Part shown: positions 15,966 through 52,900 of the stretch, piece after piece | Numbering within the stretch: position 1 is the stretch's first letter | How the letters are laid out: the number at the start of each line of letters is the position of its first letter | DNA from: Isoetes taiwanensis | Lineage: Eukaryota; Streptophyta; Lycopodiopsida; Isoetales; Isoetaceae | NCBI GenBank assembly: GCA_021234155.1 | Contig: JAJEKV010000535.1 | Location: 91,530-155,529, forward strand | Direction of reading: 5' to 3' | DNA length: 64,000 nucleotides | Made by a program: the position numbers and the translations under genes | The notes under the pieces: model-generated | Databases searched by the model: none | What the model was told of the DNA's origin: nothing | The model's input: only the letters and a program-made list of their open reading frames with translations

Positions 15966-16329
15966 AGGCAGAATTTATCCTCTTAACCTGGCACGAGCGG
16001 GATCGAGAGCCCTCTTTTACTTTTATTTCAAATTTTGCTTTAGAGGGAGGAATTCCTTTTAATTCAGAGTAATCCCAAGCAAAGACATCTGAGAATTCTT
16101 GACACAGCATAGGAAATGAGTTGAAGCAAGGTTCAGGAGCTTTTGGACCAACTTTCAGGGTTCTGGTTTGGCCATTCTTTTGGATACAAATGACTTGCTC
16201 TCTGCTTGTTTCCTCTATCCCTATAGTTAGAATTGGGCAAGTCTGTGAGAGGTTCAGTTCTTCTTCCCGAAAGGCTCCTTGACTAAAAAATCCAATATGG
16301 TGCCTTTAGCTAGCTTTTGTCTACTTCAC

Positions 16330-27425: not shown

Positions 27426-28573
27426 CTGAAACAGATTACAACATTTGAATAAATCAGAAGTCAGATCTACAGTTGAATTCTCACTCAAAAATCAGATCTA
27501 CAGTTGAATACTCATCACTGTAGACATCATAAACAATAAATAGGGCAAATGAGAAAGAAAGATAGGCCATAAAATAAGGTGATTATATGAAATTGTGCAG
27601 ACTCCAGATTCTAATTCTAGGAAAGATATATCTGCCCCTAGATCGTTATGCATTCTGAGAGTGAGACATCTTTATGCAGTTCAAAATGCTTGTAAGACAG
27701 ATCTATGAGTGTATCGTGTTTTAGCAAAGCACATCAAGTAGAAAAGGTCTAATGCTTCAATATAATACCAGAATGTTGCCATCGTAACAAGGTACAAAAC
27801 CTTCAGTTATTTCTTTAAGTCCAAATAACTCCTTACATCAAACATATATCCAATAAATAGAATCTAAAAGCTCAAATCAATGTGTACATTACATGATGTT
27901 AGCCCAGAGCTTGTGTATCCCAAAGAATTGTCTAGATCCACCTAATTTTTGCGCAGATACGTGAGGGGCAATTCAGCTGCAATAAGTGCACAAAAGTTTC
28001 AAAATATAGATGACAATAATTGCAACCAAATATCTAATCAACAAAGCAAAACATGAGAATTACCTGTTCATACAGATTATTGTTTGAGTATAAGCAAAAA
28101 GACATGGTTTTGCTTTGCAACAATGCTCCAAAGTTCAACTAAGCATTGAACTAAGTTGCAAATTGGCTCACGTTCTAAACTGTGTTTTTGCATATGGAAT
28201 CCCTTTACAGCAATGATACTGCCAAGTCTTTTTCTTCTTGATCAGAAAGAAGGGGGGAATAAATTTCCGGCAATAAGGAGATGAAGGGTTTTGAACCCTA
28301 AGCTGCAACATATGTTATGTTTGGCCGTTTTACAACATGCTCTAATTGTTGCATGCTAACATTTGTGGCTAGAAGACATAAAACCAGGACAAAATAAAGA
28401 ACAAAAAAGACCCAACTTACAGGGTTATCCATTTGAGTCCGTATCAGTGCTGCTTGGACCCTATTCCAAAGCCAACCAAGCCGAACTTGTTTGCTGCCAT
28501 GAAGATAGAATATCGAAGGAGGAATCCTGTACTGATGCTTGATTTTCGTTAGCATCAGAAACATTATCCCACT
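27426..28573. other. Intron or intergenic DNA
   Basis: AT-rich. No GST N-terminal exon and no further NEK exon recognised. Confidence 0.5.
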
Positions 28574-32248: not shown

Positions 32249-32885
32249 ATCACCTATTCAGCAATGTATATTGTAGTGATATTCTGGTATATAAGATATA
32301 GTAATGCATAAGAGCACTTAACAAGGTTGCAAATTAAATGGGAGTGTTGCAGCACTCCTGTTTCAAAGATTCCTATAGAAAAAGCACGTCACTTCAAAAA
32401 TTGGGCTTTTTTAAGAGAGGTTTAAAGTTTCAGGAGTATCAATTTTTTTTTGGGCCTATTTTTGGGGTATTCTTTGGACACGACTTTGGTTTTTTGGAGT
32501 TAAGCACGTGAAAATAGCAGAATTGAGACATGAGTACGTAATTTTATAGAGGTGGATGTAAAAAAAACACAAATTTAGTAAACATAATAATAATAATTTC
32601 ATTACTGTTTTTGTGTTATATCAATAATGACAATCAATAATAAATGTCAATCAGTAGCCACAACATAAATCCGTCAGAGATCTAAATTAAAATCTTCTTC
32701 ATTCTTCTTTTTTGGTCTCAAATTTTGATCGACTCTATCTTTTCACCTTTCTCCGGTGACTTAGGCTTTTCTCAGATTGGTGGTTGCTTCCAGTATTGTA
32801 GCTAGAGCAACTTCTTTCAGCTCTGCAAATGTAGCTTCGTCTTCGAAAGAGCTTGTAAAAGGAGATCATCTTCTAAGATGTCATC
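32249..32885. other. Intergenic, no gene recognised
   Basis: AT-rich, between the tandem small genes and the 3' end of the methyltransferase locus. Confidence 0.5.
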
Positions 32886-33970
32886 TTAGCAAAATCGAAT
32901 TAGACTTTGCCCCAACTCTTGATTCTCCCCGGTAGAGTTGGTAAGGCGAAAAAGTCTCATCTTGATGAACTGCATGACCTCCTTATCAATGTCAACAGCT
33001 ACACAATTTTGGCCCTTCTTAAGTGCACAAGCAATAGTTGTACCAGAGCCAGAAAATGCGTCGAGCACCCAATCTCCTGGACGTGAGAACATGTCCAGAA
33101 GATGGTTAATCAGCTTCTGTGGCTTCTGGTAGTGATTCACTATTCTTCCTTATGCACTAGGGTCCTGCACTTTGTCAGAACACGTACCTGGAAACTCCAA
33201 CACGTTTGAAAAGTTCGCGCACTGTGGTTGAAGTGTTCCATTGTACGTTTCCCATCGAAACTCAATAAGCCACATGGAGATATTCGACCTTACTCAGCAG
33301 TCGCGGGCCTCCACGATGGTAATTAATATTTGTTTTATACCTAAGGAACAAAAAAATAAAAAAGGATTTAAGTACAGCCAAAAGAAACGTATTCCGGAAT
33401 AGAAACTCCTAACAAGAATTTAAAAATGCTACAGTTGTAACTACAAAAAAAAAAAAAAAAAAGAAGGTAATGAAAACAAAAGGACTTGTGTATTCCAGAA
33501 TAAGTGCTTACCAAACCAGATTTTCATAACCAGCTTGCGCAGGCGAACCAAAATAATTCTTGAAGCTGGCTTTCACAAGGCGGGATTGCATGCTTGAGTG
33601 AAATACAACCAGCCTCCAATGTTTTGCCGTGGTAATTTGCTTTATACCGTCGACGAAAGCGTTAAACTCAGAGTTTTTAAATGGCTGGTCGTCGTAGCGG
33701 CTGTCTTTCAGCTTAAACCCATATGGAAGGTCAGCTATTACCAAGGTAAAATCTTGAGGCTTTATTGATTCAGCTAATTTGGTGCAATCACCGTGTACTA
33801 TACAGAACAGGTTATTTTGATCGTACATTGTAAACCGTTCGTAATCGGAGGGCTCAGTATCCAAAACACGCCGTCTGTCCAAAGATCCTCTCTTCTCGCT
33901 ACCGCCGTGACCAGATGCATGAACCCTCCCGGCAAGTCCTTGTTTTTCTTTTTGCTCGCAAAAAGAACGC
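32886..33970 (-). CDS. Beta-class DNA methyltransferase, catalytic exons
   Basis: Two minus-strand exons. Exon 33,512-33,970 carries FCIVHGDCTKL, then FTLVIADLPYGFKLKDSRYD: motif IV, the catalytic (D/S)PPY box, here DLPY. It ends YENLVW at donor GTAAGC. Exon 32,886-33,340 starts after acceptor CTTAG and continues in phase: YKTNINYHRGGPRLLSKVEY; then NHYQKPQKLINHLLDMFSRP (motif X) and GDWVLDAFSGSGTTIACALK with VAVDID (motif I, AdoMet binding). Order IV-X-I defines the bacterial beta class that makes N6-methyladenine or N4-methylcytosine. One frameshift (after VEYLHVAY) and one TAA (before GRIVNHYQKP) break the second exon; both could be decay or assembly error. The leading D favours adenine over cytosine, weakly. 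Confidence 0.75.
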
Positions 33971-34020
33971 CTTAGTAACAAGAAAAACAACAATATAAAA
34001 ACAATTCAACATACCCAAAC

Positions 34021-34156
34021 CTTCAAAATTTGGCGATATTGATAATCCTTTTCGTCCGAGGTTGCGATAGGGTAAAGCTCTTTTGCACCTTTCCAAATTG
34101 CCGACATTTAACTGTTCCATTAAGCATGTTTGACATGTGATGACATTTTTCCGGGG
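34021..34156 (-). CDS. Methyltransferase locus, Cys-containing exon
   Basis: Acceptor TTACAG at 34,157 opens an exon encoding NVITCQTCLMEQLNVGNLER then LPYRNLGRKGLSISPNFEG. The exon ends at 34,021 before GTTTGG. Spliced to 33,970 the reading continues as GVLFASKKKNKDLPGGFMHL then VTAVARREDLWTDGVFW before the frame shifts into the motif IV frame. CQTC could be half of a zinc site. If one A is missing in an A5 run, this exon also joins in frame with the exon ending at 48,269. Confidence 0.55.
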
Positions 34157-34302
34157 CTGTAATATAATACAAACGTTAGAAGGAAGAAACTAAAAAGGAA
34201 AGCAACAAGAAAGAATCATTTAAACCGTGAAGCTAAAGTGTATTCCGTAATACACTTCACTGCTTTGGGGTCCGGGTTCGAACTTCGCGAAGACAGCCCC
34301 TC

Positions 34303-34742
34303 TGTGGAGGACCCTTGATCTAACAGAGAATCCGGGGAACTATGTCACGGATTTGCAAGAAAAGAACAAGAAGAAGAAAAACAGTAAGTAAGAGAACAAT
34401 GAGAGGAAATGATAAGCTTCCTTTGATATCAATGATGAACATACATGAGCTCTCGAATCGAGAGAAGATCAAGAGAGACAAGACTCAAAACTCATCTAAA
34501 ACTCATGTGCTAGCTCTACTCATATATATAGTACAATGGCCTTTGGCCCAATATAGACACTCGGACCGATCTCGGTGTCGACTCCTCGGAAGGAGGCCCG
34601 ATTTGGTGAATATTGGCGGTGCCTCTTGAAGTGCCTAGAATCACCTTTGATGGCTGACCCGCGGGTCGACCGCGGGATCCTTGAGCTTGACCTGGTCCGT
34701 CAGATGCATGAATAGTCCCTGAACCAGAGGCACAGACTAACA
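34303..34742 (-). repeat. Element B left LTR (3' LTR)
   Basis: 440 bp. Aligns with the right LTR throughout but lacks about 110 bp found there between AATCAC and CTTTGATGGCTGACC. Outside its left end the PBS-like sequence GGTCCGGGTTCGAACTT continues. Confidence 0.85.
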
Positions 34743-34825
34743 CTCCCCACCAAACGCACACTCGAGTGAAGAAAAAGGAGGAAGTGTCTCCGAGGGCTGG
34801 AAGCCATCGGGCCTGAAAGTGATCC

Positions 34826-36116
34826 TCACGGGAATGAGGACGGCACCATTATGGTATCGCCAATGAGATCCCGGGCGTGTTTGAAGAGCGTGAGGAGTGT
34901 TGAGGCCAAGGGCAGGATCTCGTGATCAATGAGAAAACGAGATCGCACCATGTCTTCAAGGGCGCGATGGGCGCCTAAGAAACAAACCGACATTCCATGA
35001 GGAGGCAGGTCCGAGGCCAAGGCACCGACCGCATTCTGGATTGCAAGAAAATGGGACGCCGGCCGATTTAAGGAGCTGAGCAAGATGCATTTTAGAGCAG
35101 CACAAAACCCGCTTTGAAGGTGGACCAAAGGATCCGTGAGGTGAGGTATGCATTCTCGCAAGAAGGTGTCAAGACCATGGAGCGATCGCCAGGCGCTGCC
35201 AACCACGCCATTAGCAATATAGATCCAATTCGTGGTGTTATCAAGAGTGGCACCCTCCTCCCAATGGGAGCGGCGAACAAAACGGGATCCCACCGAGATC
35301 CGCCGAGATCCGAGGTGGAGTCCATCCAAAGATGGCCATCCATGACCTTTGTCCAAAAGGGGAGACGCCAATCGAAGTCGTGAACCGGGGCGCGGAGGAA
35401 CACCTGTGGAAGCATATGGAGAGGGAACCATGCCCGTGGGCGGGTTGTTGAGCCCGCTCCCGTAATTCACTCGACAAGGGCCGGATCAAGAGCTTTACAC
35501 CAACGATCCCGCACAGGAGCGTAGAGTTGAGAGTTGACAGGAGGGCTATCCCACTGTGGGGACCGCCTTGCTATCCGTAAGAGCACGTGAATTGATTGTA
35601 ACCAGCGAGGTGTCGCATATAAATTTGTGCATAGGGAAGATCCTCGTGATGTCCCGTGATACTTCCTTATTTGTTGCAAAAGACTTCCGCTTGCCGGAGA
35701 GGTAAATGATGTGCAAGCTCGTGCATGTACTCTTGATGAAGAGCGCAGTGTCCGAGCATGATCAGCCAGGTAGGGGTTGTTATCCCTAAGCAACCATTGA
35801 AGGGTGGGGTCACCCCGATAGTTCCTGCGGGTGGCCCATCCCGAAATCTCTCCCGTGTCACCCGGGATAGAAATCATGAAAATGTAAGCCATGGGCTGAA
35901 CAACTCTGAAGGTGATGAACCGGATCTTCGCAGTTGAATGAGATCAAAGACTAAAAGGGCACAGCAGACACCTTTGTCTTCAATGGAGAGTTCCGCCAAC
36001 CGAAGAAAATCTGCAGCAGCGTCGATTGGAACATCCACGGACCATCAGCCCCATGCCACTTCAGAAAGAAAGAGGTGGCGTGCAACCACATAATCCGAGA
36101 TAGCGTGAAGGAAACG
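34826..36116 (-). pseudogene. Element B extra ORF region, part 2 (unknown)
   Basis: Continuation of the region above beyond the copia-like insertion. Frames include RHLFFLKWHGADGPWMFQST, LLQIFFGWRNSPLKTKVSAV, then a 141-residue frame (35,467-35,892) and a 214-residue frame (34,826-35,470) with WIYIANGVVGSAWRSLHGLD. The long open frames on the minus strand suggest it was once coding. Not recognised. Confidence 0.45.
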
Positions 36117-36465
36117 GGCCAAGGTTGCACCAAGAAAGGGAGAGAAGGGATGCACACCAATATCCGAGAGCCGCTAAAGCTCCCAAAACAAAGGCAAATT
36201 GGAATTGTATTCAATGTTGTATGTCAATACATGAAGTACAATGATATAGACAAACGGTGATACTAAGAATAGTATTAGCCGTTTCAACCACCGCCCACTA
36301 ATAAATACCAAGTTACTTAGTTAGGTCTCGGTGCTCAAGGCCGATAAGGCCGCCGACGGTTCGGGCTTCAAAGACTTTTCAAAGACCATCAGGCCGAAAA
36401 GCCGAAGTCGCCGCTTCAAAGACGCCTAGCAAGATGGTGGTCTCGATATCACATATATCTTGACA
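36117..36465 (-). repeat. Copia-like element left LTR
   Basis: 349 bp. Its first bases read GGCCAAGG instead of TGTCAAGG. Confidence 0.8.
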
Positions 36466-37885
36466 CTCCTCCTGATGAGAGATCGCCATCTCCATGCTTA
36501 GCCTCCTCCTCCCGGAGATAAGATCTGAATCTTGGTCAAGGCTCGCTTTAATCGTGGTCATCCAAAAGCTCAAAAATCAAGTTTGCATGAAAGATCAGCT
36601 CTATTCTCTCGGTAGGTAAATAGACCTTCGCTTGACCTTGATCAAGTGTTGCTAGAAGTAAAGAGTCAACTACTCCTCCTTGCTTTGGAATCATGATCAT
36701 ATATGACGCATATTCAACTCCTTCACATTCAAGTGAATTAAGGTCTCCTCCTTGATCTGGAAATAAAATAGAGTTGAGTGCCATATCAGGTGCTGGAAGT
36801 GTTGGAAGTGCTGTAAGTGCTGGAAGTTTCAGAATCCGAAACAAAAAATCTGCCGACTGTGTGTTAGAACCCGAGTGCCTCCTTGCATAAATGCCACCAA
36901 AGTATCGTAGAAATGAATGCCACTTGATGAAGTGTTGCTACATTGTCCTAAAAATGGGGAGACGAAGCCACATCAAGATATCCTAGCTCAATAGCTGAGG
37001 TATCTATTAATCCTTGCTTTGAAGGTGCTAGAATATCGAAATTGGCATCCATTTATTGGATGCTATCCCATCGTCGATATCCGTAAAAGTAGAAGTGAAA
37101 TCCACTACTTTATGCTTACTAGGAAGAGATAATCACGCCGCCAATGTGCTTTTCCTCCTCATCATGCTCATCCCCATCCATGGTAGATTGAGTCTTTGAA
37201 TGCCATGCTGCAAAGAGAGTGGCATGATTATCTTTACCGCATCTTGCCTCATCATGATCTCCTCCTTAATAGAAGTGATTGCTTGATGGAAGCCCATATC
37301 TTTGTCTTGCATGAAGTCTGCCGCACAAAGAATCAAATGCATTAGGTAATGACCGAGGAAGAAAAATAGTTGCATCGATTGAGATCCGATGCTCTTCTCC
37401 AAAAGCTTCAATGCCGGAAGGTGTGCTTCATGTGATCCGAGAACTCGCCAAGACTTTCGCCAGCCTCGGCCCCAAAGACATATCCATCACCTCCGCATAC
37501 AAGTGCCCAATCTTATGGGTCTTTTTGGTCATGCTTCAATGAGAGCATGCCACAAATCGTGGCTATTCTCTTGCCGGAACTCATCAAGGATAGAGTCACC
37601 TAAAGAGAGCCCAATATATGCCATTGCCTTGTCATCTCAAATCGCCAAGCATGCAAATCAGCAATATTCTTAGCATCCCATGTGTTCTTGGCCATTGACA
37701 ATTCCCCAAACTCCTTCATCCTTGAGAATGAAGATCATTCCGCTTTTCCATTGTTGGAAACCCGCGCTGGCCAAAGATTTGAATCGCATGACCGCCGTGG
37801 AAGGTAATCTGATTGTAGCTTGCATCCTTCTCCATTGGCCGGTTGATCTTGAATCAATCTCAAGACACCCGCAAGCTCGATACCA

Positions 37886-38227
37886 TGTCAAGGTTGCACC
37901 AAGAAAGGGAGAGAAGGGATGCACACCAATATCCGAGAGCCGCCAAGCTCCCAAAACAAAGGCAAATTGAATTGTATTCAATGTTGTATGTCAATACATG
38001 AAGTACAATGATATAGACAAAACGGTGATACTAAGAATAGTATTAGTCGTTCAACCACCGCCCACTAATAACAGCCGCTACTTAGTTAGGTCGGTGCTCG
38101 TCGATAAGGTGCCGACCGTGGTTCGATTCAAAGACTTTCTCGAAGACCATCGCGGCCGAAAGGCCGAAGTCGCCGCTTCAAAGACGCCTAGCAAGATGGT
38201 GGTCTCGATATCACATATATCTTGACA
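37886..38227 (-). repeat. Copia-like element right LTR
   Basis: 342 bp with perfect 7-bp inverted ends TGTCAAG...CTTGACA. Confidence 0.85.
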
Positions 38228-40805
38228 GAACGGGAAATCAACAAAAGTGTGTTGCTAACGATGGTGATATAGCCGCCCGGTTTGGTTCGAGCCTCATCGC
38301 CAGACCGAATAGCGCGGTCAGAGTCGTTGTTCGAGGTCACGATCCCGTGGTCCTTTTCTAACGTATATGGATCGGGTCACGGACCCGCTTCGAGAAGTGT
38401 TAACCTGCGGAGGAGGATTGCCCAGAGCATTGAGTCGAAGACGCATAATCTCCGGCCATCAAGAAGTTTCGCTTTTTCGAACCTCCGTAGTTTCGATCTT
38501 GAGGGACGTGGTCGAGAAGTTCCGCGTGGAGAGCCGAGCCGCCAAAGAGGCAATTTGAGCATCACGCCTGTGAAGGTGTTGAACTTGAGTGTCAGAATCG
38601 TCACAAAGCTCGGAGTACAAGGCCGAGCTTAGCAATATCTTTCTCCTTGTCACCCGTGAGGGTGGCTTTGGACTTGTTTTGCTCCAATAAGTCCTGAATT
38701 TCGGATTGAAGCCGAAGCCCGCTGATCCGCAAGGAGGCTGGTCCGATCCCGTGCACTTTTGAGATCTATGCGGGCCGTAAGAAAGCCCCCGCTTTTCTTG
38801 AAGTTGGGCTTCCAAAGTTTGAACTTGTGCGTTGCAGCTTTGAAGATCACGGTGAACCGTGACGGAGGTCGCCAGGCCGCGGTGAACCCCATTTATAAGA
38901 GCTTCTTGGGATTCTTGTAACTTTAGAACAGCAGCCTTTGAGCATCCCCGCCGATATCGATACAACAAACCGACGAGGGTGCCGTGGTGGTGGAATCGGC
39001 TGCGGGCCGGGTTTCATGGCGTTTGTGAGACATGGTGTGAACCGGAATGCTTGGATTCTCAGAAAGCGCAGGAGGAGACAAAGGACATGGGAGTGCGGAT
39101 TTTGACATGACCGAGGAAGAAGGGCGGAAGTGCCGACCGGGTGAGTCCGAGGAAGGGACCACTGAGTGGGAATCATGAGAATGAGGAGGTGTGGGAGGAA
39201 AGTAATGACGGATAATAGCTTGAAGGTGGCCTCCCACGTAAACTTCAAATAGAAGTGGCAGCCCTAAGACGGTCCACTTCTTGGAGAAGACTAGAGAACA
39301 AAGAATTGGGGCCAATCAATGTGGTGGGTTGAGCGAGTAGCAAAGGACTACTTATATTATAGAAAGGTTTATTGATATGGGTGTTCTTGATAGAATACCC
39401 AAGGAACTTTGCCACAGAACTTAACAAAGGTCTCATGGGGCTTGTCAATATTGGTCGCGATGCACATTTGCATGATAAGCGGAGCACCAAACTCAAGAAC
39501 ATCGGAGATCCCGTATGGCGACCAAGATAAACAAGGGTTTGCAAAGGAATATGGAATACCTCGAAATCAGGTGCCGAAGTCAAATAAATGGTGGTGCCAT
39601 CAACCACCGTGGTGTATCCATATGGGCTATTGACGATGTTCGCGATGAACCGCCTTAACCGGTCGATTTGGAGCCGGTTCCATTTGAGAGAATTTGAAAG
39701 CGGGCGTTTCGGCGATCGCACGATTCGGGCCAACAAGGGCTTCACGGAAAGTGGGCGCTAAGAAAGATAATCGACTAAAAAGAGACAGCCTCCCGGAGCA
39801 AAGAGTTTGAAGTGTAGGAAATTTTGGGGCAGCCATGGCAAAGAGCTTTAAAAGAACGGTGATGCAAAGGCGAGAGCGGAAAATGTATAGGCTAAGAACG
39901 GAGGACGGCGCAGAGGGATAAAAGGTTTAGGGGCCGCGAAATGGAGGTGAAGAGGCATGATAAGGGCTAAGCCGCAACCGCTGATGGTGCCGTGTCCAAA
40001 AGATGCCAAGGAGGCGCATTGAGAGGCAAAAATTTGGCTAAGTCCCCAAACAACAAAGGGAGAAGTAATGAACGTGGAGATGAGGCGGAGAGAATGATGG
40101 ATGTGACAGATGGCCAAAGGACACACATTAATGTTCGACCGGGCGGAAAAGAAGCAATGGCATTTAATGCCGGCAACTCGGGCGGGATATCATTAAAACG
40201 TAATGTGTCGAGGGTACCATGGCTAGATATGCGCGGAGAAAAGATTCTCTTTTTAGAAACAGCCTTTGCATTGCAAAACACGCTATGCATTTTTTTTATT
40301 GGTCCACGCCGACAAGGAGTTTTCGGGCTTGGCTATATAAGACTAACCCGGAGGAAGCCGAAGGCATCCGATGGCGCCAAAGATGGTCGGCCGGTTTGAA
40401 CGAGAACCCATCGATGCCCACTAACCGCCAAGAGTGGATTACTTGCAAAATGAATTGTCCGACCTTCGGGCGCCGCCACAATCGTGGCCCGAGAATGGAT
40501 GGCTGGTGTTCCCGGATGGTTGAACATCCCGATCCTCATACCAACGGGATGGAGGTGGTTCCGACCTTCGGCGGGACCCCTCGAAAGCGTAACCTCTACC
40601 ACATCTCAAGATCACCACCGCCTTCCCAACCCGAGTAGAGGGTTTTTCTTCCGAGGACTTAGTAGATAGGGCTCGAGCCCGCTTTTTGTATATAGGGCAA
40701 AGTGCCTCTTAGCGAAAGAGTCGGGTCAGGCCTACATTTTGTAAAAAGTTCCACCTATAATATAATATGCCTTTTAGTCACTATCATTTGTGTTTGCGCC
40801 TTGAA
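38228..40805 (-). pseudogene. Element B extra ORF region, part 1 (unknown)
   Basis: Between integrase and 3' LTR. One frame starts MAAPKFPTLQTLCSGRLSLF at 39,836 and continues, after a shift, with RPLSNSLKWNRLQIDRLRRF, SPYGYTTVVDGTTIYLTSAP and FLGYSIKNTHINKPFYNISS (39,245-39,745). A coiled-coil-like segment follows (LQSCNAQVQTLEAQLQEK, QVQHLHRRDAQIASLAARL; 38,459-38,968). No known domain, and no clear signal peptide or membrane segment. The stretch 40,130-40,805 holds no convincing minus-strand ORF; plus-strand frames there (39,992-40,638) are of unknown value. Confidence 0.5.
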
Positions 40806-41855
40806 TCAGACCGCTTTGTTGATTTTCACTTGCTGTGGTATGAAATGTTTTGAGGCTAAAGCCATTAACGTTGTAGGTAATGGAGTTCCATCTAACTCAC
40901 CACCTGGAAAACGCCGGGTTGAACCACTTGAACTATTTGATAAGGGCCAAGCCATCAAACTTAAGCTTACCCGAAATTTTTTGTACCGAGAATCATAAAG
41001 AAGAACCAAATCTCCTTCTTTGAATGTTTTTGTCTTCATACTTTTGTCATGTAGAGATTTTTGCAACCGCTGTCCATGAAGAACACCTAATATAAGCATC
41101 CCTTCTAAGTTCATCCAACTGCTCCAATTGATAAACCCTTTCTTTGAGTGGCAAAGCAGCGGATTATGGGCGAGCTAGTTGAAAACGAGAGTGGGGAGAA
41201 TGTACTCAAAAGGCATGAGAGCTTCTTGACCATAAACCAATTTGAAAGGAGGTGACCAAGAGCTATTTTGAAACAAGTATTGTAAGCCCAAAGAACAAGA
41301 GGGAAGCTTGGTTTGCCGGGCCAAGGGTGAAGCCACAAATTTTCTTGAGTATTGTGACCGAGTTTTGTTGGTGCTTTTCGCCAAACCATTCCCTTTGAGG
41401 ATAGTAAGGTGTGCTCTTGTGATGATGTATCGTGAGATAGTCCGCCAGCCCTTGATGGTATGATTGATAAAATGGACACCAACGATCACCGACTCAGCCG
41501 GTGGGGCAGCCAAATCGCGGTGATAATTTGTTGATAGAGGACCTTGGTTGTGCTTGCCGCAGTTGTTGTCCGAAGCGCGCAAGCTTCCGCCCATTTAGTA
41601 GCCGTGCAGTCGCTGAGAACTAGAATGTAGCGGCACGGTGTGCCGGGCAGAGGATCGATGGTCCCACAAAATCCATTCCCCATTTGCGGGAAGGGAAGTG
41701 GGGTGGCGACCGGGCGCCAAGGGAAGAGCGCCACGGTCGTGGGTCGCCCCCACACCGACAAGCATCACACGTATGGCGTGGGCATGAGCTGCCTTTAAAA
41801 GCTGGGCCAAAAATACCCAGCCTAGAAGGATTTTTGGCGTCGTGGGTGTCACCAT
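40806..41855 (-). pseudogene. Element B integrase
   Basis: Core fragments FVGPSIL (about 41,650) and HHKSTPYYPQREW (about 41,390), then LVYGQEALMPFEYILPT (41,200-41,250), and the C-terminal KTFKEGDLVLLYDSRYKKF (40,950-41,040). These are the usual order of Ty3/gypsy integrase blocks; STPYYPQ holds part of the catalytic core. No chromodomain recognised. Split over at least four frames. Confidence 0.85.
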
Positions 41856-42084
41856 GAAATGACCACCACCTAGCCCTTGATGAGCTTTATGGACAATATC
41901 CGAACTTCATGAGGGAGAACACAGTCAAGGATGGTATCCTTACCCTTTTGTAAAGATGTCCCGCTACCATTGTGTAGTCACGACGTCAGCGACAAATTGA
42001 TGACGACGGATTGTCGCTTTGGTATTAGAGAGCCGCCATGTCCTCCGGGTGGAAGAGCTACCGTGAGGAGGTAATCGCTGAAAG

Positions 42085-43810
42085 TCATGGAACCAACGTG
42101 GTGTTGCCGCCACTAAAAAAAGAGTTGAGAGCCGTGAAAGGCGCCCGAGACTCCAAAGGAGGGATCATCCCGGTGGATGCGGAAAGATAATCCGGGATTA
42201 ACGCGGAGATTTGGCCGGCCTTGTGAACAATTTCAAAAGGGGCAAATTTTGAGAAGAAGGACCCATCGAGCAATGCGCCCGTGGGCGTGGATTTGTTGAT
42301 CAAATAAAGGAGTGCTTGGTGGTCTACAAAAATTTGATCCGACCGCCTAAAAGATAGTGACGGAAGCCGCTGGACACGTAAAATTAAACCCAAGGCTTCA
42401 CGCCTGCGGGCAGAGTAGTTGGCGCCGCCAGAATTGAGTTTCCTCACGGGCGATTCGCTTTGGTTTGTCGCTGCAGCGATCATATTCTTGAGAAAGAACA
42501 GCTCCAATAGCAAACGCCAGACATCGACATGAACATGAAAGGGCTTGTCCCATTGAGGAGGAACAAGAACCGGCCCGAGTAAGTAAGAGCTTCAACCGTT
42601 GAAAGATCCGCTCGGGAATTCCAAGCCCGTGTGGATTCATCACCCGTGAGTTTATGAATGGGATCCGCAATGGTCGCTAGTCCAGAATGAAAGTGGAGTA
42701 ATAATTAACCTTACCCAAGAAAGAGCTGGTTTCTTTTGATATTGGCCGGTGCTTGAGCCTTGAGCACACAGCCTGATTTTGGCGTGATCAGTGGTGATAC
42801 CGCTTTGGTCGACAACATGTCCCAATAGAACACCTGAAGTGACGCAAAAAGGTGCATTTCTCGATTGAGACTAATGCCGGACTCATCACATTTTCTGAAA
42901 GACGAAGTTCCAATTTATCCAAATGGTCAGCCATGGAACTCAGAGGCGAGAAGTCATCTTGAAAAATTTGCAAGAAGGGATTTTCCTTCATAAAATCATG
43001 AAAACCGAGAGCATGATACTGAAACGTGGATGGGGAGTTTGATAATCCAAAAGGAACCACCTTGTAGGCAAAAAGTGACTTACCGGGTGGTGAATGTAGT
43101 CTTGAGTTGATCGATTCTTTGATTGAGATCCGATTGTAGCCTTTAAAACCATCCATGAAGGAGTACATCTCATGTCCAAAGAACCTCTTCCTAACCCGGT
43201 CCGTGAAGGGAAGTGGAAAATGATCACGCCCGCGGGCCCGATTGAGTTTTCGGTAGTCCACACAAACGCTGATCTTACCATTGTGTTTGAGTGCAATGAT
43301 GATGGGGCTCACCCATTCGTAATGTTTGACCTCATAGATCAAACCCGCAAAGAAGGAGTTTGTCAATTTCCGCTTTGACTCGATCACGGTAATTTGGGTT
43401 GAGCCGGCGATCGCCGTTGCTATAATCGCGGCATCGACTTGGTAGGAATGGTGAGTTCCCCAAGGTTTTGTTGATCTCCAAGATCTCTCAGAGCTCCGTG
43501 CAAAAATGTGTTTGAACTTTTTGAAGAGCCGGACGCCCCTGCTACGATATAGGGTGTCGGAAGATTTTGCGCAATTCGACAAAGCCGATTGTTGCCTACG
43601 CCCACAATCTCGACTTTCGTGGAGTTTGAATATGGGGATAACTTCAGGTCCCGGACAATATGAGCAGGAGGTTGAAGCATAACAGATGCTGCACTCTGCG
43701 GGTGAAAAAGAGAGAGGTTGTTGAGTTTCATCCGCCAGAGGTTGCTTCGTAACATCATGTACATCTACAGAGGGCGGGGGAGATTCAAAGATCCGAAAAG
43801 TGATCAACAC
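42085..43810 (-). pseudogene. Element B reverse transcriptase and RNase H
   Basis: A 340-residue frame (42,788-43,810) contains SVCVDYRKLNRARGRDHFPL, YSFMDGFKGYNRISI, VPFGLSNSPSTFQ and IFQDDFSPLS (YxDD box as FQDD). The RNase H at 42,085-42,513 reads NYSARRREALGLI, QIFVDHQALLYLINKS and FAPFEIVHKAGQISALIPDY. Domain order is canonical for Ty3/gypsy. Frame breaks fall at about 42,790 and 42,500. Confidence 0.9.
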
Positions 43811-43877
43811 GTTGGATGCGATTGCAAGGAGCCGTAAGGGTCAAGCAAAGCAGCCACAGCCTGGTCCCGATCAAGAG

Positions 43878-44418
43878 TCATTTCTCCCCAAGGATCAAAG
43901 ATATTCGGGGTAGGATGACAGAGGCGACTCGCTGGTGGAGCCCGAACTTGATAGATATTCGGGCCCCTAATTGGTGTCGAGAGAGAGGGTTCAGCATTGT
44001 CGACGGAAATGATTTTGCCTCTGTTTCCAAATCCATGGTGGCATTAAGGTGACCATCAGGATGACTAACCGATCCGCGGGCCCAAGAATGGATACTCTTG
44101 TCCGGCGGGAGAAAAGGTCCGCCGACCAACATTTCATAATCACCTGGATCTTCTCCAGCCTTCCAAACACCAAATTCCAAGGGGAATCTGAGATCACCAA
44201 TGTTGATGTGAAGAAGAGGGTGGCTTTGAGGTCGTGGATATGGCCATTGGCCAATTTGATGTCATATGGAGCACGATAGAGTTGTTTGATGCCCATTTGT
44301 TTGCGAGTTTATCCGTGATGAGATTAACCGTGCTACCTCCGGTCAATTTGAACATGGTTGACTTGCTGATTGCCCACCGTGGCATGTACCGTGGGTATAG
44401 AGGTAGTAACAGCCCCAA
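43878..44418 (-). pseudogene. Element B aspartic protease
   Basis: Frames read TGGSTVNLITDKLANK, then after a shift LYRAPYDIKLANGHIHDLKA and WNLVFGRL. The pattern [D]-x-GS-x-VN-x-I followed by a W-x-L-[VI]-x-G block is the retroviral-type protease. The catalytic Asp position reads Thr in this assembly. Located between Gag and RT as expected. Confidence 0.65.
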
Positions 44419-44883
44419 CTAAAACAAGCCGGGAGTGGTAATCGGTCCTTGAGAGCGTGATGAGTTTCAAAATCGTTGCTAGACTTAGAGGAATTTTGAT
44501 TTTTGCCGCTCCTCTTGGAGTTCCGTGAGGCACATGAGAAAAAGGATCTACGGGATCCACAGGTGCTGGAGTGCGTGGTAAGGAAGCTGCAACTTCTTTG
44601 AGGAGGTCTACCTCAGCAGCGATATTGGGATATGGCTGAGAGTGTGGAGGTTGAGACATAGAAGGAGCTTCTTGTCGGTGTTGAGCTCTAGTGGTGGCAT
44701 GAACATTAGCCAACGTGCGGCCTTCAGCAGCTTGCATGAGGTTCAGAATGCTTTGGCAAACTTTAGGCATGACATGCGGCATGAGTTTCTCCAAGTCAGG
44801 TGCAAAGTGAACCTTTTTTTCTTCATTATGAGGAATTAGGTCGACCGCAAAGGCGGGTTGGCGCGTGCCTTTAGGAATAATGG

Positions 44884-47416
44884 TTAAGGGTCGTGGACGC
44901 CGGGTCCGGGCGCGGAAACCAAACCTACCCAATTGGATGGCTGGACTGGAGGATTAAGAGCTTGAAAAATTTCTTCCCCGCTTGTTGATCCATCCGAGGT
45001 TGACGGCAGGAGCTGGTTGATAGCGTGATTGCCGAGGCGCGAGGTGGCTTCCGAAGAACGGGGACGCTGGCCTTGTTTGCCATTAGCAATCTCCAGAGTT
45101 GGTAAGCCGTGGAGGCGGACCGATGTGGTCTGATTTGTGCCGTGAAGCCGCACTCGAACTTGTGGAAGTTGAGGACACGCCGTGGTGGTATGACCCCATT
45201 CTTGACAGCTGATAACACCGAAGCTTCGGGAAGGATCAAAAGGAGGACGTGTTGGGTCCCCATTGTTGCTCCCCTGCTGATAGAGTTGATTGGGTGGGCG
45301 CTTTTGGTGGTCGCTGGAGCATTGGGCGATTGGTTTGAGGTGTGGTTTTGCACTTGATAAACCATTTTGTTGCGGAAAGGTGTAGGATGAGTCGCGAGTG
45401 CACTCTTCCGCGGCATGATTGCACATGTTGCATCTTTACAATGAGGCGGGCCATTGGTGGAGTTGCACTCATTCGCCAAGTGGCCTTGATATTTGCGAGA
45501 TATGGCACGATCCGATGGCCATGGATTGGTGTGTTGAGGTTGAACAGCCAGTCCGGGGAACCATGACGGGCGGAATGAAAGGGAGCTCCCGAAGAGCCAC
45601 GCCACGGGGAGGAAACATTGACCGAAAGTGATTGACAAGATCGATAGCCTGCTCCAAAGTCTTCGGGCGCAGTATTCACCATGAGTCGGATAGCCGGAGG
45701 AAGTCCTTGGAGAAACGGACCAAGATCCGCCTCGTGTGGGGTACTCCTTGAGTTTGCCGAGCGTAATGTGAAGACGATCCGCAAAATCCCCGGCGGACTC
45801 GTGGGCTCTTGTTGAAGGTCATTGAGTTGCTTGAGATGAAGTTGATCATCATCCGTGGTCCCATAGTGAGAAAGAAAAGCAGTTTTCATTTCGGACCAAT
45901 CCTGTTTCCAGTGGCTTTTGTTGGACATGAGCCATTGATGAGGGGAGCCACGCAGTGTGGTGGAAAAGATGTGGAATTTCAGTTGAGGTTGCGCATGACC
46001 ATTCAGGACAGCCAGAGCCTCAAATTCTTCCATGTGGGCCTGAGCACTTTGGTCTAAGGGTTTGCCTTTCGTGTTGCCAAAGGTGGGATAAGTCAGCTTA
46101 AGGGTTTGAAAGGTAGAGGTAAAAGTGCTGGGCTGGACAGGAACATGATAGTGAGGATATTGAGGTGGAGTTGGAGGTGGTATGGTGCTGGAAAGACCCA
46201 TGGAATAAATTACTACTCCTATATTTTAGTGTAGCCAAAATAGGTTTAGCTAAATTACCTTCAAATTAGGGCTGGAAGTTTCTAACATTTGGCTAAACTA
46301 AATGGTTTTTCTCCATCATAATTTCTTGCTTTTGGCTAAACTTTCACAAAATGGAAAGGCAAATATTAGCCATCACGCTATAATAATTTAAAAAAAAAAT
46401 CCAAGCATTTTGGCAAAGGTATTGAATTTATTGTAAATACATAAATCAAGACACAAACATACATGAACATGTTCAAAAACCTAAAAAAAAGGGACTACAT
46501 TGTTCCTTTTCCTCTAATGCTTCAATTTTGTACTTGGAACAAGAAAGAGAGTGGGAAAAAAAAAAAGGAAAAGTATAAACCCCATTTGAAATTTTTAAAG
46601 TTAGTACATACATTGGTGTTGAAATTCAGGCTAATCTATCTTTTTTTCCAAGCCCACTCTATCTTAGGTTTAGCTAATCGATGTCCTGATGGATATGTCT
46701 GGAGGTAAAGGTTTGGCTATTCAACCTAAAAATTCACTTGGGCGGCAAAAAAATTGGGCTAAAATTTTCTTTTTTTTGGGCATTTTTTCCATTTACTTTA
46801 GCCGTTTTTCTTGGCAAAACTGCTACAAAATAGCCATTTGGCTAACCTTAGCCGTTATTTTATTCCATGGAAAGACCCTGCTGAAGGGGTGGCTGAGGTG
46901 GAGGTACTGGAGGTGCCTGATCATTGGGTTTGAGGTCTGTAAGATTGTAAACAGGAAGAGCGGTGGGAAAGGTAGGGAAGGGAAATTCCTGGGGAGGAGC
47001 AAAAGAGATATGTGGATATCCCTGTCCCCCCGTGAGGAGATGATGGTTGTGAAGGCAGAGGCGTATGGCCGTAAGACGGATGGATGAAGGCATGTTCGGG
47101 GTATGAAAGTAAGGTTGAGCAGGTTGAGCCTGGATATGGCTCCCCCGGAGTAGTGATGAGGAGATCGAGGTCGGAGCAATGTTTGCACGCTTGAGGCGGA
47201 GAATTTGACGAGACAGACACGAGGGGTGGGTGGCGCCCGGAGCCCTAGACCTAATGTGGCCTCCTCAATGTCATAAGTAGATCCATACATGTCACTTAAC
47301 CGCCTTCGATGATGGCGCCCAAGCCAGACGCCCCACGGGAAAGAAGTTCTTCCGGGCGCGGAAGTTTCGGACGTACATGGCGCATGTAAGAAAGGAAAAT
47401 CGAATCGCATCCGCAA
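44884..47416 (-). pseudogene. Element B Gag
   Basis: Proline-rich N-terminal part (PPVPPPQPPLQQG, near 46,870-46,930) continues after the MITE as STIPPPTPPQYPHYHVPVQP, then the core TYPTFGNTKGKPLDQ, ALAVLNGHAQPQLKFHIFST and WKQDWSEMKTAFLSHYG (45,800-46,150). Knuckle-like blocks follow: CKYQGHLANEC near 45,490 and CQEWGHTTTACP near 45,180. This is Ty3-type Gag, which packages element RNA. The frame is broken at about 45,800 and again through the knuckles. The MITE splits the ORF exactly between QGLS and STIP. Confidence 0.8.
46200..46868. mobile_element. MITE with 10-bp target duplication (copy 1)
   Basis: Ends ATGGAATAAA...TTTATTCCAT. GGAAAGACCC occurs at 46,190-46,199 and again at 46,869-46,878, a 10-bp target duplication. 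AT-rich interior with repeats of TTTAGCTAAAC / TTTGGCTAAAC. A 9-11-bp duplication is the Mutator-superfamily signature. No transposase. It interrupts the Gag ORF of element B. Confidence 0.85.
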
Positions 47417-47467
47417 GCCGCTTATGTTGTTTGGGGTCCGGTTCGAACTCCCCGCAAGACAGCCTCC

Positions 47468-48022
47468 TGTGGAGGACCCTTGATCTAACAGAGAATCCGG
47501 GAACTATGTCACGGGATTTGCAAGAAAAGAACAAGAAGAAGAAAACGTAATGGGTAAGAGAACAATGAGAGGAAAATGATAAGCTTCCTTTGATATCAAT
47601 GATGAACATACATGAGCTCTCGCGAATCGAGAGAAGATCAAGAGAGACAAGACTCAAAACTCATCTAAAAACTCATGTGCTAGCTCTACTCATATATATA
47701 GTACAATGGCCTTTGGCCCAATATAGACACTCGGATCGATCTCTCGCGCTTAAGCTCTCGAAGGAGGCCTGATTTGGTGGAATATTGGCGGTGCCTCTTG
47801 AAGTGCCTAGAATCACGACTGGACGACGCTGGGGGTGACGGGTCCGCACTTGTCCGAGCGGGCGCTCTTTGTTGAAGGGACGCAGTTTTGATCTGCGTGT
47901 TCGGCCGCTTGGTCTTTCACGAGCCTTTGATGGCTGACCCGCGGTCGATCATGGGATCCTTGAGCTTGACCTAGTCCGTCGTATGCATGAATAGTCCTGA
48001 ACCAGGAGGCACAGGACTAACA
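47468..48022 (-). repeat. Element B right LTR (5' LTR)
   Basis: 555 bp. Followed on its internal side (47,435-47,467) by a primer-site candidate, GGAGGCTGTCTTGCGGGG then AGTTCGAACC on the minus strand, resembling a tRNA acceptor plus T-arm complement. Confidence 0.85.
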
Positions 48023-48042
48023 CAGCCCTCATACTGTAAGGC

Positions 48043-48230
48043 AAAGTGTATTCCGGAATACACTTTGTCTCTTGCGTGAGGGCCAAAGTGTATTCCAGAA
48101 TACACTTTGTCTCTTACGTGAGGGCCAAAGTGTATTCCGGAATACACTTTGTCTCCCGCGTGGCCAAAGTGTATTCCGGAATACACTTTGTCTTTCGCGT
48201 GTGAGTCATAGTGTATTTCGGAATACACTT
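48043..48230. repeat. Five tandem 24-bp palindromes, about 42-bp period
   Basis: Palindromes with core GTGTATTCCGGAATACAC begin at 48,043, 48,085, 48,127, 48,166 and 48,208. Spacers are near-identical (GTCTCTTGCGTGAGGGCC). The second has CCAGA for CCGGA and the fifth ATTTCGG. A lone copy (GTGTATTCCGTAATACAC) sits at 34,235-34,257, beyond the other end of element B. Confidence 0.95.
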
Positions 48231-48268
48231 CTTCCTATCAATCAAAAAACCCAAAGTGGCATTCTTAC

Positions 48269-48720
48269 TTGTGGAGCTCCTTGGACATTTCTTCTAGTGT
48301 AAATTCCTTATCAACAACCTTTTGCTTGTTAGCCTTTCTAGTATATCCATATCCGTGAAGCCCCTCGCATTTTGCCGTACGCTTATTGTCATTTCCTTTT
48401 TGGGGACGCCGGATCCTTTTTCTTTTAGGAGACCTTTCCTTTGCTTTTCAAATCACCACGCTCGAACATGGTGAAGATTTCGTTTTGGAGGTCCCAAATC
48501 TGCAGAGAAAAAAGCGATGTCATTAGGAGGATTCTGCGGGGGTATTCCGAATCACAAAAGAAACTTACTCTGCCATCTCTAAAGGCTAGTTGAAACCGGT
48601 TGTCATGTGGTATTAAAGACGCCATTTGTTAGCCTTGTCGTATTTGAGGCAAAGACACTCCACAAGACATGCTTCCGGGCAGTTGAGAGTCTTGTGGTTT
48701 CTTTAAATCATCTCCATATT
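48269..48720 (-). CDS. Methyltransferase locus, upstream exons
   Basis: Two minus-strand exons separated by a 69-bp intron (GTAAGT at 48,568 to CTCTGCAG at 48,500). The first contains LNCPEACLVECLCLKYDKAN and, after a frame change, IPHDNRFQLAFRDGR. The second starts IWDLQNEIFTMFE, shifts frame, then reads RSPKRKRIRRPQKGNDNKRT, CEGLHGYGYTRKANKQK and DKEFTLEEMSKELH up to donor GTAAGA at 48,268. The region is rich in Cys and basic residues, as in DNA-binding nuclear proteins. Function not recognised. Linkage to the catalytic exons across the retrotransposon is inferred from strand, phase and a shared intronic motif. Confidence 0.5.
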
Positions 48721-48801
48721 TTTCTTTAAATATAACATATTCCATGTGCATGAACCTGATTTTGTCCATTTTAAACTCATTTTAAGCTTATATTCGTTGT
48801 A

Positions 48802-49970
48802 TTAAGATTGTGCGTGTTGGTAACGATTTTGGCTTCTTCTGTCATCGTCAAAGCCACAAGAACAAATTAGAGCAATGTAGAGATATCTTGATTGTTTTTC
48901 TCTTTGTACAACCGCCTCCTTGCTTTGAAATCGGTGGTTTCCCCAAGGACATAGTGCATGTAGGTGTTCGCATTTTCTCTCGTCAGTTAGTCCTTGGGGT
49001 CCATGCATTGGGATCTCATCAACAAGAACAACAATTGGAGCAACATGGGCATTTGATTGCTCCTTATTACGTCCCTTCAGATTTTTTAAGTGGTCAAGAT
49101 AGATTTTGCTTAACCCGAAGAAAGGGCTCGCCATCTTCATTCTTCGGTGGCAACCTCATGGAAGTTACTGGCAAGTATATTACACCTTGCACATACTTGT
49201 TCTGATTTATTTCTTCCATCCTCTCTGAGGTCTTGTCCACCTTTTTTTCTTTAATGGCCACCCCAGGTGCCTTGCCCTTTCCCTTCTTCTTTTTTGGTTG
49301 TTCCTCGGGGATTTCTGCAATTTCAAGCTGCTGTGCCTTCCGTTTCTTTGGTTCCTTAGTGGCTATAGTGGCTCTTGGCCTGCTAAGTTTCTTTGGCGGC
49401 ACTGGGGGGACTTCCTGTTCTTGTTCTTGGGAACCTATATCTGATGACCTCCCTGAAGTACTAGGAGGAGGTGATGATCCTGATCTACCTCCATCTGAAT
49501 GCTCGGACTCACTGACAGGAAAGTCCTCGCTCGTACTAGAACAAACCTGTCTAATTAGTGAACACAGACTTCGTTTGGTCCGGTAGTGTGAAAAGAATTT
49601 GTACAGTGCCTGTGGTTGCACACAGACAATTCTAAAGAATGCGATGTCTACAACGATGAAGCCTTGGGAGGTCTTGAAGGATAGCCTCCCCGACCTCCCC
49701 GTCCCAAGAACTCCTGAGACCTCTTTTATTGTCCCTAGGTTAACAAACTTCGTGTCGGGCACCTTTTGTTCCCAAAGACTTTTACGATGTGTAGAAACGC
49801 CAATGTGTTTGTATTTTCCGTCCTGCACCTCGTTCTTAACCATTGCATTTGAAAGTTTTCAGAATCGCAGCTCGTCCAGGTCGGTCCGCGGTGCTTCATT
49901 GGGTTTCATACGCTTAATCTTCAGAGATCTTTTTGATGCCCTCTTGCTTTCTTCTTCCCTGCCACTGAAA
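48802..49970 (-). CDS. Methyltransferase locus, putative N-terminal coding region
   Basis: The longest frame (49,094-49,843) reads MVKNEVQDGKYKHIGVSTHR, then VPDTKFVNLGTIKEV, a Ser/Pro-rich stretch (SSPPPSTSGRSSD), and a Lys-rich segment (EPKKRKAQ, QPKKKKGKGK) like bipartite nuclear signals. Upstream coding (KRASKRSLKIKRMKPNEAPR) follows an acceptor near 49,972 but meets a TGA just before MVKNE. Downstream, another frame at 48,802-49,140 encodes HVAPIVVLVDEIPMHGP and CEHLHALCPWGNHRF. I recognise no named domain. It may be a separate gene; same strand and short gaps argue for one locus. Confidence 0.4.
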
Positions 49971-49991
49971 CGTTTAAAACAACAATGTTAA

Positions 49992-52900
49992 GACATAAAA
50001 TGGGACGAAAACTGTATTCCAGAATAAGATTTACTAATCTTGTGCCCTAAAGGCCAGCAAAAGACAGGAAAACAAGCAAAAATATTGTCACTCTAACTCA
50101 ATTTTTTATGCCTTAATTAGACTAAAAAGTGGTATGTTTAACCTAAAAAGTGGTCTGTTTCAGCTAAAAAGTGGTATGTTTATGTGATGTTCCAAGGGAA
50201 TATACGCCATAAATACGTATATTCCTGGACCCGTCACCATACAAGTCTACCTAGGTAGCCTTGTATGCATTGGATAAGTGGCAAGGGGTGCATATCTAAG
50301 TTAATTGTTTAACTTAGATAACCTTAGGATAAGGCCCATTTCCACATGGCCTTATCCTATTGGGCAACAGCCACACGGCCTCATCTTAGTGGTGCCACGT
50401 GGCATCCCACGTGGACCCACACCTATATTGGCTCTAACCCTAACCCTAGACCCTTTTCCCCGACCTAGCACCTGATCTTCATCCACGCGTTCAAACCCCG
50501 CTTTCGAGCACCGTCATTATAGTCTAGCTCGAGCGCCAGCCCCTGGAAGGTGTGTATGATCGTAGAGGGAGCAAGACTTCGATCCACGTCAAGGAGCATG
50601 GAGACGCCAGGGATGGGAGGAAGCGCTTCTGGAGGAGGTAGGTTGAGTAGAGTTCATGTTAGTTCATCCGGGAAGTTAGTACTCCGTGATGGGTTAGTAG
50701 TTCGTGATCTAGAGTAGAGCCACCCTAGATCCTTTGTTGAACATCTTGAACCCTAATCAAGGAACCCTAACCTGTTAGTTAGCTATGTATGATTAGGTTA
50801 AGATGTTCATAGGATATTGATATTGATCATGATGTGATGTATGTGATATTGGTTGATCATGTTGCTCCTCTTGTATTGGGAAGGGGGGTAGAGACCTAGG
50901 GCCATATGTAGTATGCTCCTAGTGTAGATCCCTTTAGTTCCTATTAGTTTATAACAAGCGGCCTGTGCATAGGAACCCACCAGGCTATGGAAGCTATGAT
51001 ATGACTCCAGCACTATACAACGGGCTAGAGGCAAGATGGGGGTGGATCCCCGCCGAAAGTGGGGGCTTCGGGGATCCCATAGTGGACTAGGCTTATGGTC
51101 GGGTCACCGTGTGTGGGGCGGAGCATGGGTCCCACACCTCCGGGCAATGGTGCCGCCTCCTCAAGAGTTGCAAGTGTCGGCTTGGCTCTTGTTTTGGGGG
51201 GTTCAGTCGGGTAAGAATCGTGTGTCGCCACGATTCTCTAGTTGCCCGTGGAGCCTCTAGACCCCGGGTTGGGGAGATGCAACCCTTCCTACCTCATCGG
51301 ACCAGGGAGATGCAACCTGGAGTAGTCCCGATGGGTGATGCCATGGGATTGCGTATCCGGAAGGTTAGAGTCGTGTCGTAGCTCATTAGAGTTTTTTTGG
51401 GTTCACTTATTGTCCCAAGCTCGATGCCAGCATGGAAATCGCGCGGCCAATGAGAATTCGGGGGGGTACAGGCTTTTCTTCATCCATGCCTCCCTTCCCA
51501 TGCCAGGTGTCGTCAAGGTAAAGGTTCGACATTATCCTTACCTACCTGCCCCGAGGTTCTGGTATGGAAGTAATAATTACAAATTATTCCACCGAATATC
51601 AACTTAACCCCAAATGTTGGGGTGTCTATAAGTACCCCCTTCATCAACGGCTCTTCTTTTCGCGTCTCTCCATCCAGGTTTGCTAATGCTTTCAATCCTT
51701 CTAGTTGCGAGCTCATCTGATTCAGACTGTTTGATCTAATTAATTTGCCGGTTCATTTCAGATGGCGATTACCTCACACCTGGTGAGAACAATTTGGCCG
51801 CTTCAATATATTTCTTGGGAGCTTAAGTGACAATCCGACCGCCACTCGGAGGTCCTCATCGGGTGATCAAAGGCAGGAGAAATGTTATTTCAAGCCATTG
51901 GAAGGCTATTGTTGTCGGGTTCGAGGTGAGAGGGGAAGTATATATCAAGGTCAGACACCTATACACACCGACAGATATGAGAAAAGAAAAGATAAGATCT
52001 CACGTAATTTCCCCGAGCTTCGCGTGCTAATTGTGAGTTTCATTATATATTGCTAATCCGGTCATTCATTATATTTTTAAGAAATCAACTAATTGGGTTT
52101 CGTATCTCGTGGCTCAGATTTCGATGTGCCGGACTCGAACCATCGAAGTTCTATCACAAGCATCTTCCCGTACTTTCTATTATGATATTGGATCCTTGCT
52201 TTTGAAGGTCAAAACAAGTGCAACCAATGGAAAGGGGATTTGGTTCTAAAATATGAGTATTATCCCTGAAAGGCAAAATTGTTGACTTACCATTGCCCCC
52301 ATTATCACGCCTTAGTTCCCGCCCCAATGGATTCCAGTTCTGTTTTTTGCCAAGCTGAAATTGTCACAGAAATTTTCGCTGCTTTGAAGGAGAAAGGTGG
52401 AGTCCGTGGGCACGGAAAGTAAATGTACCCATCGATATGTTTATTACCTTGTTTAAGAATGTCGAGAATGTCAAGAAGACTTCAAAAATGTTTTACCGTA
52501 AGTGATTGTCGGATTGTTTCGGATGACATTTTATGTGATGAATGGTCATCCCGTCTCGCATGAAGGAGTTGAGAAGGTATGCTATGTGATAAAGAAAGAA
52601 AGCTGCTCGAATCGTATTGTATTCGAAAAGCAAACAGGTTTACATTACCTTCAAATACGTAAGATGGAGGGAAGTAAAAGAAGGGAGCAGATGGACGTGG
52701 GTTCCAAAGTGGAACAAGACGATGCCGATGGTACCCATTCTCAGCGGGGTCATTGACATTGCTATCTTCAAAAGTGGTCAATTGTTTAAAACTTTAAAAG
52801 TCGAAGAAGCATGGTCTTTATTTGATGTAAGAATTATTTTGGAATCAGAATGTGACTTAAACGTCTTCCATTTTTTGGTGGATGGTGTCAAGGTAGGAAA

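Follow-up and report, generated by a model that had tools for sequence, protein, structure and literature searches.

The 64,000-nucleotide stretch of Isoetes taiwanensis DNA analysed here (contig JAJEKV010000535.1, positions 91,530 to 155,529; hereafter the window) carries on its minus strand the exons of a beta-class DNA amino-methyltransferase gene. The original prediction read them as a single bacterial-type gene captured by a plant-like genome, and the motifs and splice on which it relied were recovered in the sequence: ADLPYGF (motif IV), a splice giving WYK, NHYQKPQKL (motif X) and DAFSGSGTT (motif I) follow one another in beta-class order, with the exon 5/exon 6 junction reading TTTG/GT...AG/GTATAAA on the minus strand. 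An intron-bearing enzyme of this class in a plant-like genome, as opposed to contamination, is supported. As for its origin, we are confident that these exons belong to a dead copy, with half of it deleted, of a Sola-type cut-and-paste DNA transposon, in which a putative ParB-like region and the methyltransferase form the cargo.

Ends, transposase and decay of the element

Copies of the element (designated by L numbers) were picked from 150 rows of a genome scan with PF01555; 20 were examined, and later 3 more. When aligned, they have common, sharp boundaries at either side. These boundaries carry short terminal inverted repeats, exemplified by AACAAAGTTGC at the left end and GCAACCTTGTT at the right (general patterns AACARRRTTGC and GCAA(Y)..TGTT, respectively); immediately internal to the right end is a hairpin, ACGGGAGTGCTGCAACACTCCCGT. 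A complete element measures about 8.4 kb, and the better-kept copies hold two divergent genes. Ends were surveyed in 21 sequences, namely 20 copies and the window; nine were without one end by the pattern used, and in each of the 12 copies whose two true ends could be located, including the 4.1-kb internally deleted form L028, the element is flanked by an identical 4-bp target-site duplication (AAGC, CTAA, GTGA, TAAG, TCAT, CATT, ATAT, ATAA, TGTG, ATCA, TTAA and ATCC). The flanking 4 bp did not match in four pairings that used a spurious end. Terminal inverted repeats together with a target-site duplication of fixed length identify a cut-and-paste DNA transposon. A Helitron, which the terminal hairpin had brought to mind, was ruled out by the 4-bp duplications and the inverted repeats, and no Rep/Hel domain was present among the scanned frames.

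Across the genome (1,658,258,908 bases in 1110 contigs), the right-end hairpin pattern with up to two mismatches had 922 matches, a figure that counts ends, not full elements, and a reversed control had none. The right terminal sequence of the window copy differs from the L018 end by two substitutions. At least one copy, L027 (C976:450178-460177), keeps every predicted cargo exon open, as well as the long exon of the transposase, and is flanked by TTAA duplications. Since transposon termini and target duplications bound the copies, host-gene capture was rejected, and what had been taken for a single captured gene is carried as cargo by a DNA transposon of many copies, the transposon-borne outcome that the original prediction had itself named as speaking against it. 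It is very unlikely that, by analogy with rotifers and liverworts, a bacterial methyltransferase was captured and domesticated as a plant epigenetic writer, with the transposon copies derived from it. Introns, eukaryote-style exons and strong purifying selection would suit such a writer, but the termini with 4-bp duplications, the hundreds of copies, the presence of the transposase half in one unit with the cargo in 17 of 20 copies and the dead state of the window copy all argue otherwise, on evidence drawn from copies of the element.

One of the two divergent genes encodes a DUF7869 protein with a predicted RNase-H-like fold and a BAH-like tail, and the element was scored as having an RNase-H-fold DD(E/D) transposase. 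The transposase frames lie on the minus strand of the element and the cargo exons on the plus strand, an opposite-strand arrangement of the type found in the Ectocarpus Sola-1 element. Sola elements have 4-bp duplications and a DDD transposase (PMC10741241), and Sola2 elements of amoebae likewise have 4-bp duplications (PMC3627910); the duplications observed here agree with that superfamily. The superfamily name draws on the 4-bp duplication, on the predicted fold and on the cargo held in common, by which the element is very probably a Sola-1 relative. On the opposing side, the top Foldseek match to the DUF7869 protein, and the sole one below 0.001, was an Argonaute PIWI domain (E 8e-4); viral terminase nucleases and UvrC ranked next, and the Sleeping Beauty transposase appeared at rank 31 (E 0.11). 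Argonaute PIWI domains, viral terminase nucleases and UvrC likewise have RNase-H-like folds, and therefore the fold alone names no transposase. A transposase profile had no matches among PDB sequences.

In the window copy, exon 3 (48,499-48,269) closes at a GTAAG donor and exon 4 opens at 34,156 after ACAG. Intron 3 (48,268-34,157) contains the long terminal repeat (LTR) retrotransposon that had been predicted to be nested there (element B), with LTR stretches 90-92% identical (34,264-34,644 versus 47,430-47,816, plus a second piece) and an RVT_1 match in the frame at 42,788-43,840 (E 1.8e-7). It had further been proposed that exons 3 and 4 join in frame once a single A is added to an A5 run. 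The shortfall is real, the run being A7 in L016 and L018, but it is not the sole lesion: compared with better-kept copies, exons 2, 3 and 6 are also broken, and exon 4 has a frame change around it. A blastn search with L018, L015 and L016 found no transposase half in the window. With stops or frame changes in exons 2, 3, 4 and 6, and with that half missing from the window, we conclude that the window copy is a pseudogene, a dead relic of the transposon. Its features are collected in Table 1.

Table 1. Features of the transposon copy, by position in the window
Feature	Position	Strand	Remarks
Transposon copy, methyltransferase (right-hand) half only, split by nested LTR retrotransposon	32320..50173	-	blastn of L018, L015 and L016 against the window
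Right terminal sequence: hairpin ACAGGAGTGCTGCAACACTCCCAT, then TTAATTTGCAACCTTGTT (terminal inverted repeat end)	32320..32361	-	
Exon 6: motif X NHYQKPQKL, motif I DAFSGSGTT, acidic tail	32674..33340	-	stops and frame changes
Exon 5: motif IV ADLPYGF	33512..33950	-	open in window copy; start approximate
Exon 4: Cys-containing KNVITCQTC exon	34015..34156	-	frame change in window copy
Nested LTR retrotransposon (element B), intron 3	34261..48022	-	LTR identity, RVT_1; ends approximate, by eye
Array of palindrome AAAGTGTATTCCGGAATACACTTT, intron 3	48041..48230		four cores 39-42 bp apart, at 48,048, 48,090, 48,132 and 48,171
Exon 3 (IWDLQNEIF...MSKELH)	48269..48499	-	one stop and frame changes in window copy
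Exon 2: N-terminal part, Lys-rich linker, ParB-like region	48569..49964	-	stop and frameshift in window copy

Elsewhere on the minus strand of the window lie a frame with a glutathione S-transferase C-terminal domain (27,072-27,491; PF13410, E 9e-8) and fragments of another retroelement polyprotein (15,014-15,974; RVT_1 and RT_RNaseH_2).

The cargo protein and selection on it

The cargo gene is multi-exon, probably with six exons, and in the protein that it encodes a putative ParB-like region precedes a beta-class N6/N4 amino-methyltransferase. PF01555, proposed at the outset as a check, matched the last exon of L018 (E 5e-18). The genome scan gave 1443 candidates at first look, 150 of which were scored; all 150 matched, each listed row above the curated cut-off, and the listed rows do not include the window copy. 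For the L027 domain, the PF01555 match reached E 3.6e-19 (70 bits, cut-off 26.7), its best stretch being the X-I part, and phrog_67 matched residues 11-260 (4.5e-26). The permuted motif order, IV followed by X and I, fits a beta-class DNA amino-methyltransferase, and even the divergent L026, 56% identical over the domain, retains ADIPYGF, HYQKPQKL and DAFSGSGTT with one motif IV residue changed. As a rule of thumb, a motif IV starting with D leans to N6-methyladenine (N6-mA). Since motif IV of the cargo begins with D, the predicted product is more likely N6-mA than N4-methylcytosine (N4-mC), which cannot be assumed. Domain structure does not settle base specificity (PMC8885841).

Although the original prediction recognised no domain in the upstream Lys-rich exon, a weak but repeated ParB-like match was obtained for this region in other copies. 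TIGR03764 matched five of seven members (best 7e-4, E up to 1, far below cut-off), phrog_1033 matched L022 (2e-4) and phrog_723 matched L027 (0.014). Weighing against a ParB assignment, all of these matches fall short of every curated cut-off, and none of the ParB models matched L026, for which the search gave DUF6551 (0.027) and, unrelated to it, a phage-connector model (0.022). A search of PDB sequences with a ParB-region profile gave two chance matches and no ParB chain.

In L002 (2495-3445) and L029, a SET-domain frame (PF00856, E 2e-6) was observed beside a methyltransferase fragment. It was considered as a cargo partner and rejected, the neighbour looking like part of another, CACTA-like element, with what resembles a CACTA-type transposase alongside (a label given by eye).

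Ratios of nonsynonymous to synonymous substitution rates (dN/dS) were taken from pairs of open frames only, with dS of 0.15-1.2 and copies drawn from the best PF01555 rows. The ratio was 0.06-0.08 for methyltransferase exon 6 (five pairs), 0.03-0.13 for the ParB region (four pairs) and 0.27-0.34 for the transposase core (five pairs). By these ratios, purifying selection acts strongly on both domains of the cargo when subfamilies are compared, and in the pairs tested it is at least as strong as that on the transposase. Against this stand the higher values of young pairs with few changes in exon 6 (L012-L028, 1.84; L012-L015, 1.13; L015-L028, 0.36; L020-L022, 0.29) and of L019 exon 5 (up to 0.44), as well as a sampling that favours fitter copies, in pairs that share copies and are not independent. 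Many distant pairs were saturated. Since the pairs comprise open frames, best hits and shared copies, dN/dS reflects the lineages that kept transposing. That the cargo is neutral, hitch-hiking baggage is highly improbable: many copies are indeed broken, the window copy included, but this reading accords poorly with dN/dS of 0.03-0.13 between subfamilies and with the catalytic motifs kept in so divergent a copy as L026.

Phased palindromes inside the element

The palindrome array in intron 3 of the window copy recurs across the family. Among the 21 sequences (the window and 20 copies), 20 contain the core GTATTCNNGAATAC, with 165 occurrences in total, within a conserved unit of about 24 bp, AAAGTGTATTCCGGAATACACTTT, whose spacers are poorly conserved. 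Among 117 successive spacings below 130 bp, 86 were of 41 or 42 bp, and at least one spacing of 41-43 bp was found in 18 of 21 sequences. A period of 41-42 bp is close to four helical turns, about the spacing at which the sites would share one face of the helix. Where both ends are known (12 elements), the interior, 93,007 bp in total, holds all 103 cores, and the 26,993 bp of flanking sequence hold none; outside the element, the window likewise has no core. The arrays lie mainly in cargo intron 1 (placed by the first exon, which was found in three sequences) and in intron 3. In L018, phased arrays occupy 4417-4730 and 6747-6989, and all 19 looser sites (ATTCNNGAAT) fall outside the marked frames; in L027, 12 of 15 do so, and the remaining three fall within an open frame close to where the transposase gene starts. 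The central CG of the palindrome reads CA or TG in 57 of the 165 cores, as may be expected if host 5-methylcytosine (5mC) acts there.

We regard the arrays as candidate binding or modification sites and hypothesise that they may be recognised by the ParB-methyltransferase or by the transposase. Three copies weigh against this: L026 has no core at all, L016 and L028 have isolated cores only, and none of the three has a spacing of 41-43 bp.

It is quite possible, if short of probable, that the cargo serves in protection or anti-silencing instead of marking a binding array, and that it is the transposase, and not the ParB-methyltransferase, for which the palindromes are sites. Transposase-binding repeats are common within transposons, which counts for such a reading, as does selection on the cargo that equals or exceeds selection on the transposase. 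A further point in its favour is that a methyltransferase lies beside an endonuclease in giant-virus mariner elements (PMC3627910). The position of the arrays, which are interior, mainly in introns of the methyltransferase gene and away from the ends, speaks against it, as does the absence of an endonuclease domain among the element frames scanned.

Tentatively, and with slightly more doubt, we propose that the transposon marks itself: the ParB-methyltransferase would recognise the AAAGTGTATTCCGGAATACACTTT arrays and write a bacterial-type mark that controls transposition or evades silencing. In our main reading of the element, the DUF7869 protein would cut and paste it; the ParB-like part would steer the accessory protein to the element's own phased palindrome arrays; the protein would methylate the element's DNA, N6-adenine being likelier than N4-cytosine; and the mark might help assemble or license transposition, or counter host silencing. 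On this main reading, the window copy has lost its transposase half and gathered stop codons and frame changes, and its intron 3 was invaded by an LTR retrotransposon.

Relatives, known systems and significance

With the methyltransferase, 88 pattern matches in bacterial and archaeal genomes included no relatives, and 106 in viral contigs included two distant ones; with the transposase, 31 pattern matches in viral contigs included none. The ParB-to-motif-IV part had no match among plasmids and the ParB region three records among phages (E 6-7), whereas the methyltransferase domain had 122 phage records, all below 60% identity; of these, 12 were listed and the two inspected are stand-alone phage methyltransferases. 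The full-length cargo found one protein, a PF01555 protein of 540 amino acids, of 7988 scored. The methyltransferase domain alone found 102, three of them 86-93% identical pieces on short contigs and the others, where named, bacterial. These protein searches, which depend on shared five-residue words, returned no annotated eukaryotic homologue of the cargo. Relatives of the DUF7869 protein, among the 120 of 161 matches listed, include proteins of Riccia, Ceratopteris, Adiantum, Branchiostoma, Mya and Cymbomonas. Four proteins (P0002, P0003, P0004 and P0104), 75-93% identical to cargo or transposase, lie on short contigs.

Among the closest described systems is Sola1-1_Ec32 of Ectocarpus, in which an opposite-strand protein of 1104 amino acids carries ParB-like and N4C/N6A methyltransferase domains; its authors suggested that proteins of this sort attach to the element that encodes them and modify it (PMC12477816). 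Both are DNA transposons with a transposase and a cargo gene on the opposite strand, a likeness at the level of organisation. They differ in that Sola1-1_Ec32 is 21.5 kb long and resides in a brown alga, whereas the Isoetes element is about 8.4 kb and resides in a vascular plant, and in that the Isoetes element has palindrome arrays, of which we found no mention for Sola1-1_Ec32 in the accessible part of the source (PMC12477816). Transposons of green and red algae with similar ParB and methyltransferase proteins are described by Iyer 2011 and Petroll 2025, as cited in PMC12477816. An architecture of this kind, thought at first to be possibly new, had been published.

Other systems share single aspects. 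N4CMT of bdelloid rotifers is, like the cargo, a permuted beta-class PF01555 enzyme encoded with introns in a eukaryote; it belongs to the host, includes a chromodomain and shows 4mC activity in E. coli, and by description, the level at which the two were likened, the Isoetes cargo differs in being transposon-borne, in its ParB-like part and in a motif IV that starts with D (PMC8885841). Retrotransposons bearing DNA methyltransferases occur in Symbiodinium and Klebsormidium, the latter with reported purifying selection, and Dam-like enzymes occur in DIRS elements; these too are mobile DNA carrying a DNA methyltransferase, but they are retrotransposons with 5mC or Dam-type enzymes, whereas the Isoetes element is a DNA transposon with a beta-class enzyme (PMC5890265). 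The giant-virus mariners are DNA transposons with methyltransferase cargo, as here, but belong to another transposase superfamily, carry another methyltransferase class and have an endonuclease partner (PMC3627910), which the scanned Isoetes frames lack.

A Sola-1 element with ParB and methyltransferase cargo is already known from Ectocarpus, and similar proteins from other algal transposons (PMC12477816). To these the Isoetes element adds a vascular plant host, many copies, evidence that selection acts on each of the two cargo domains, and phased palindrome arrays; if it does mark itself, it would be the first such system in a vascular plant within the literature searched. The claim is no longer that a plant acquired an enzyme from bacteria, but that such an enzyme is put to use by a selfish element. 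With more than 900 ends, a copy with open frames, a cargo under selection and phased arrays, the question whether, and why, transposons put N6-mA or N4-mC on themselves becomes directly testable, and where bacterial-type methyltransferases are reported in plant genomes, transposon ends are worth checking first.

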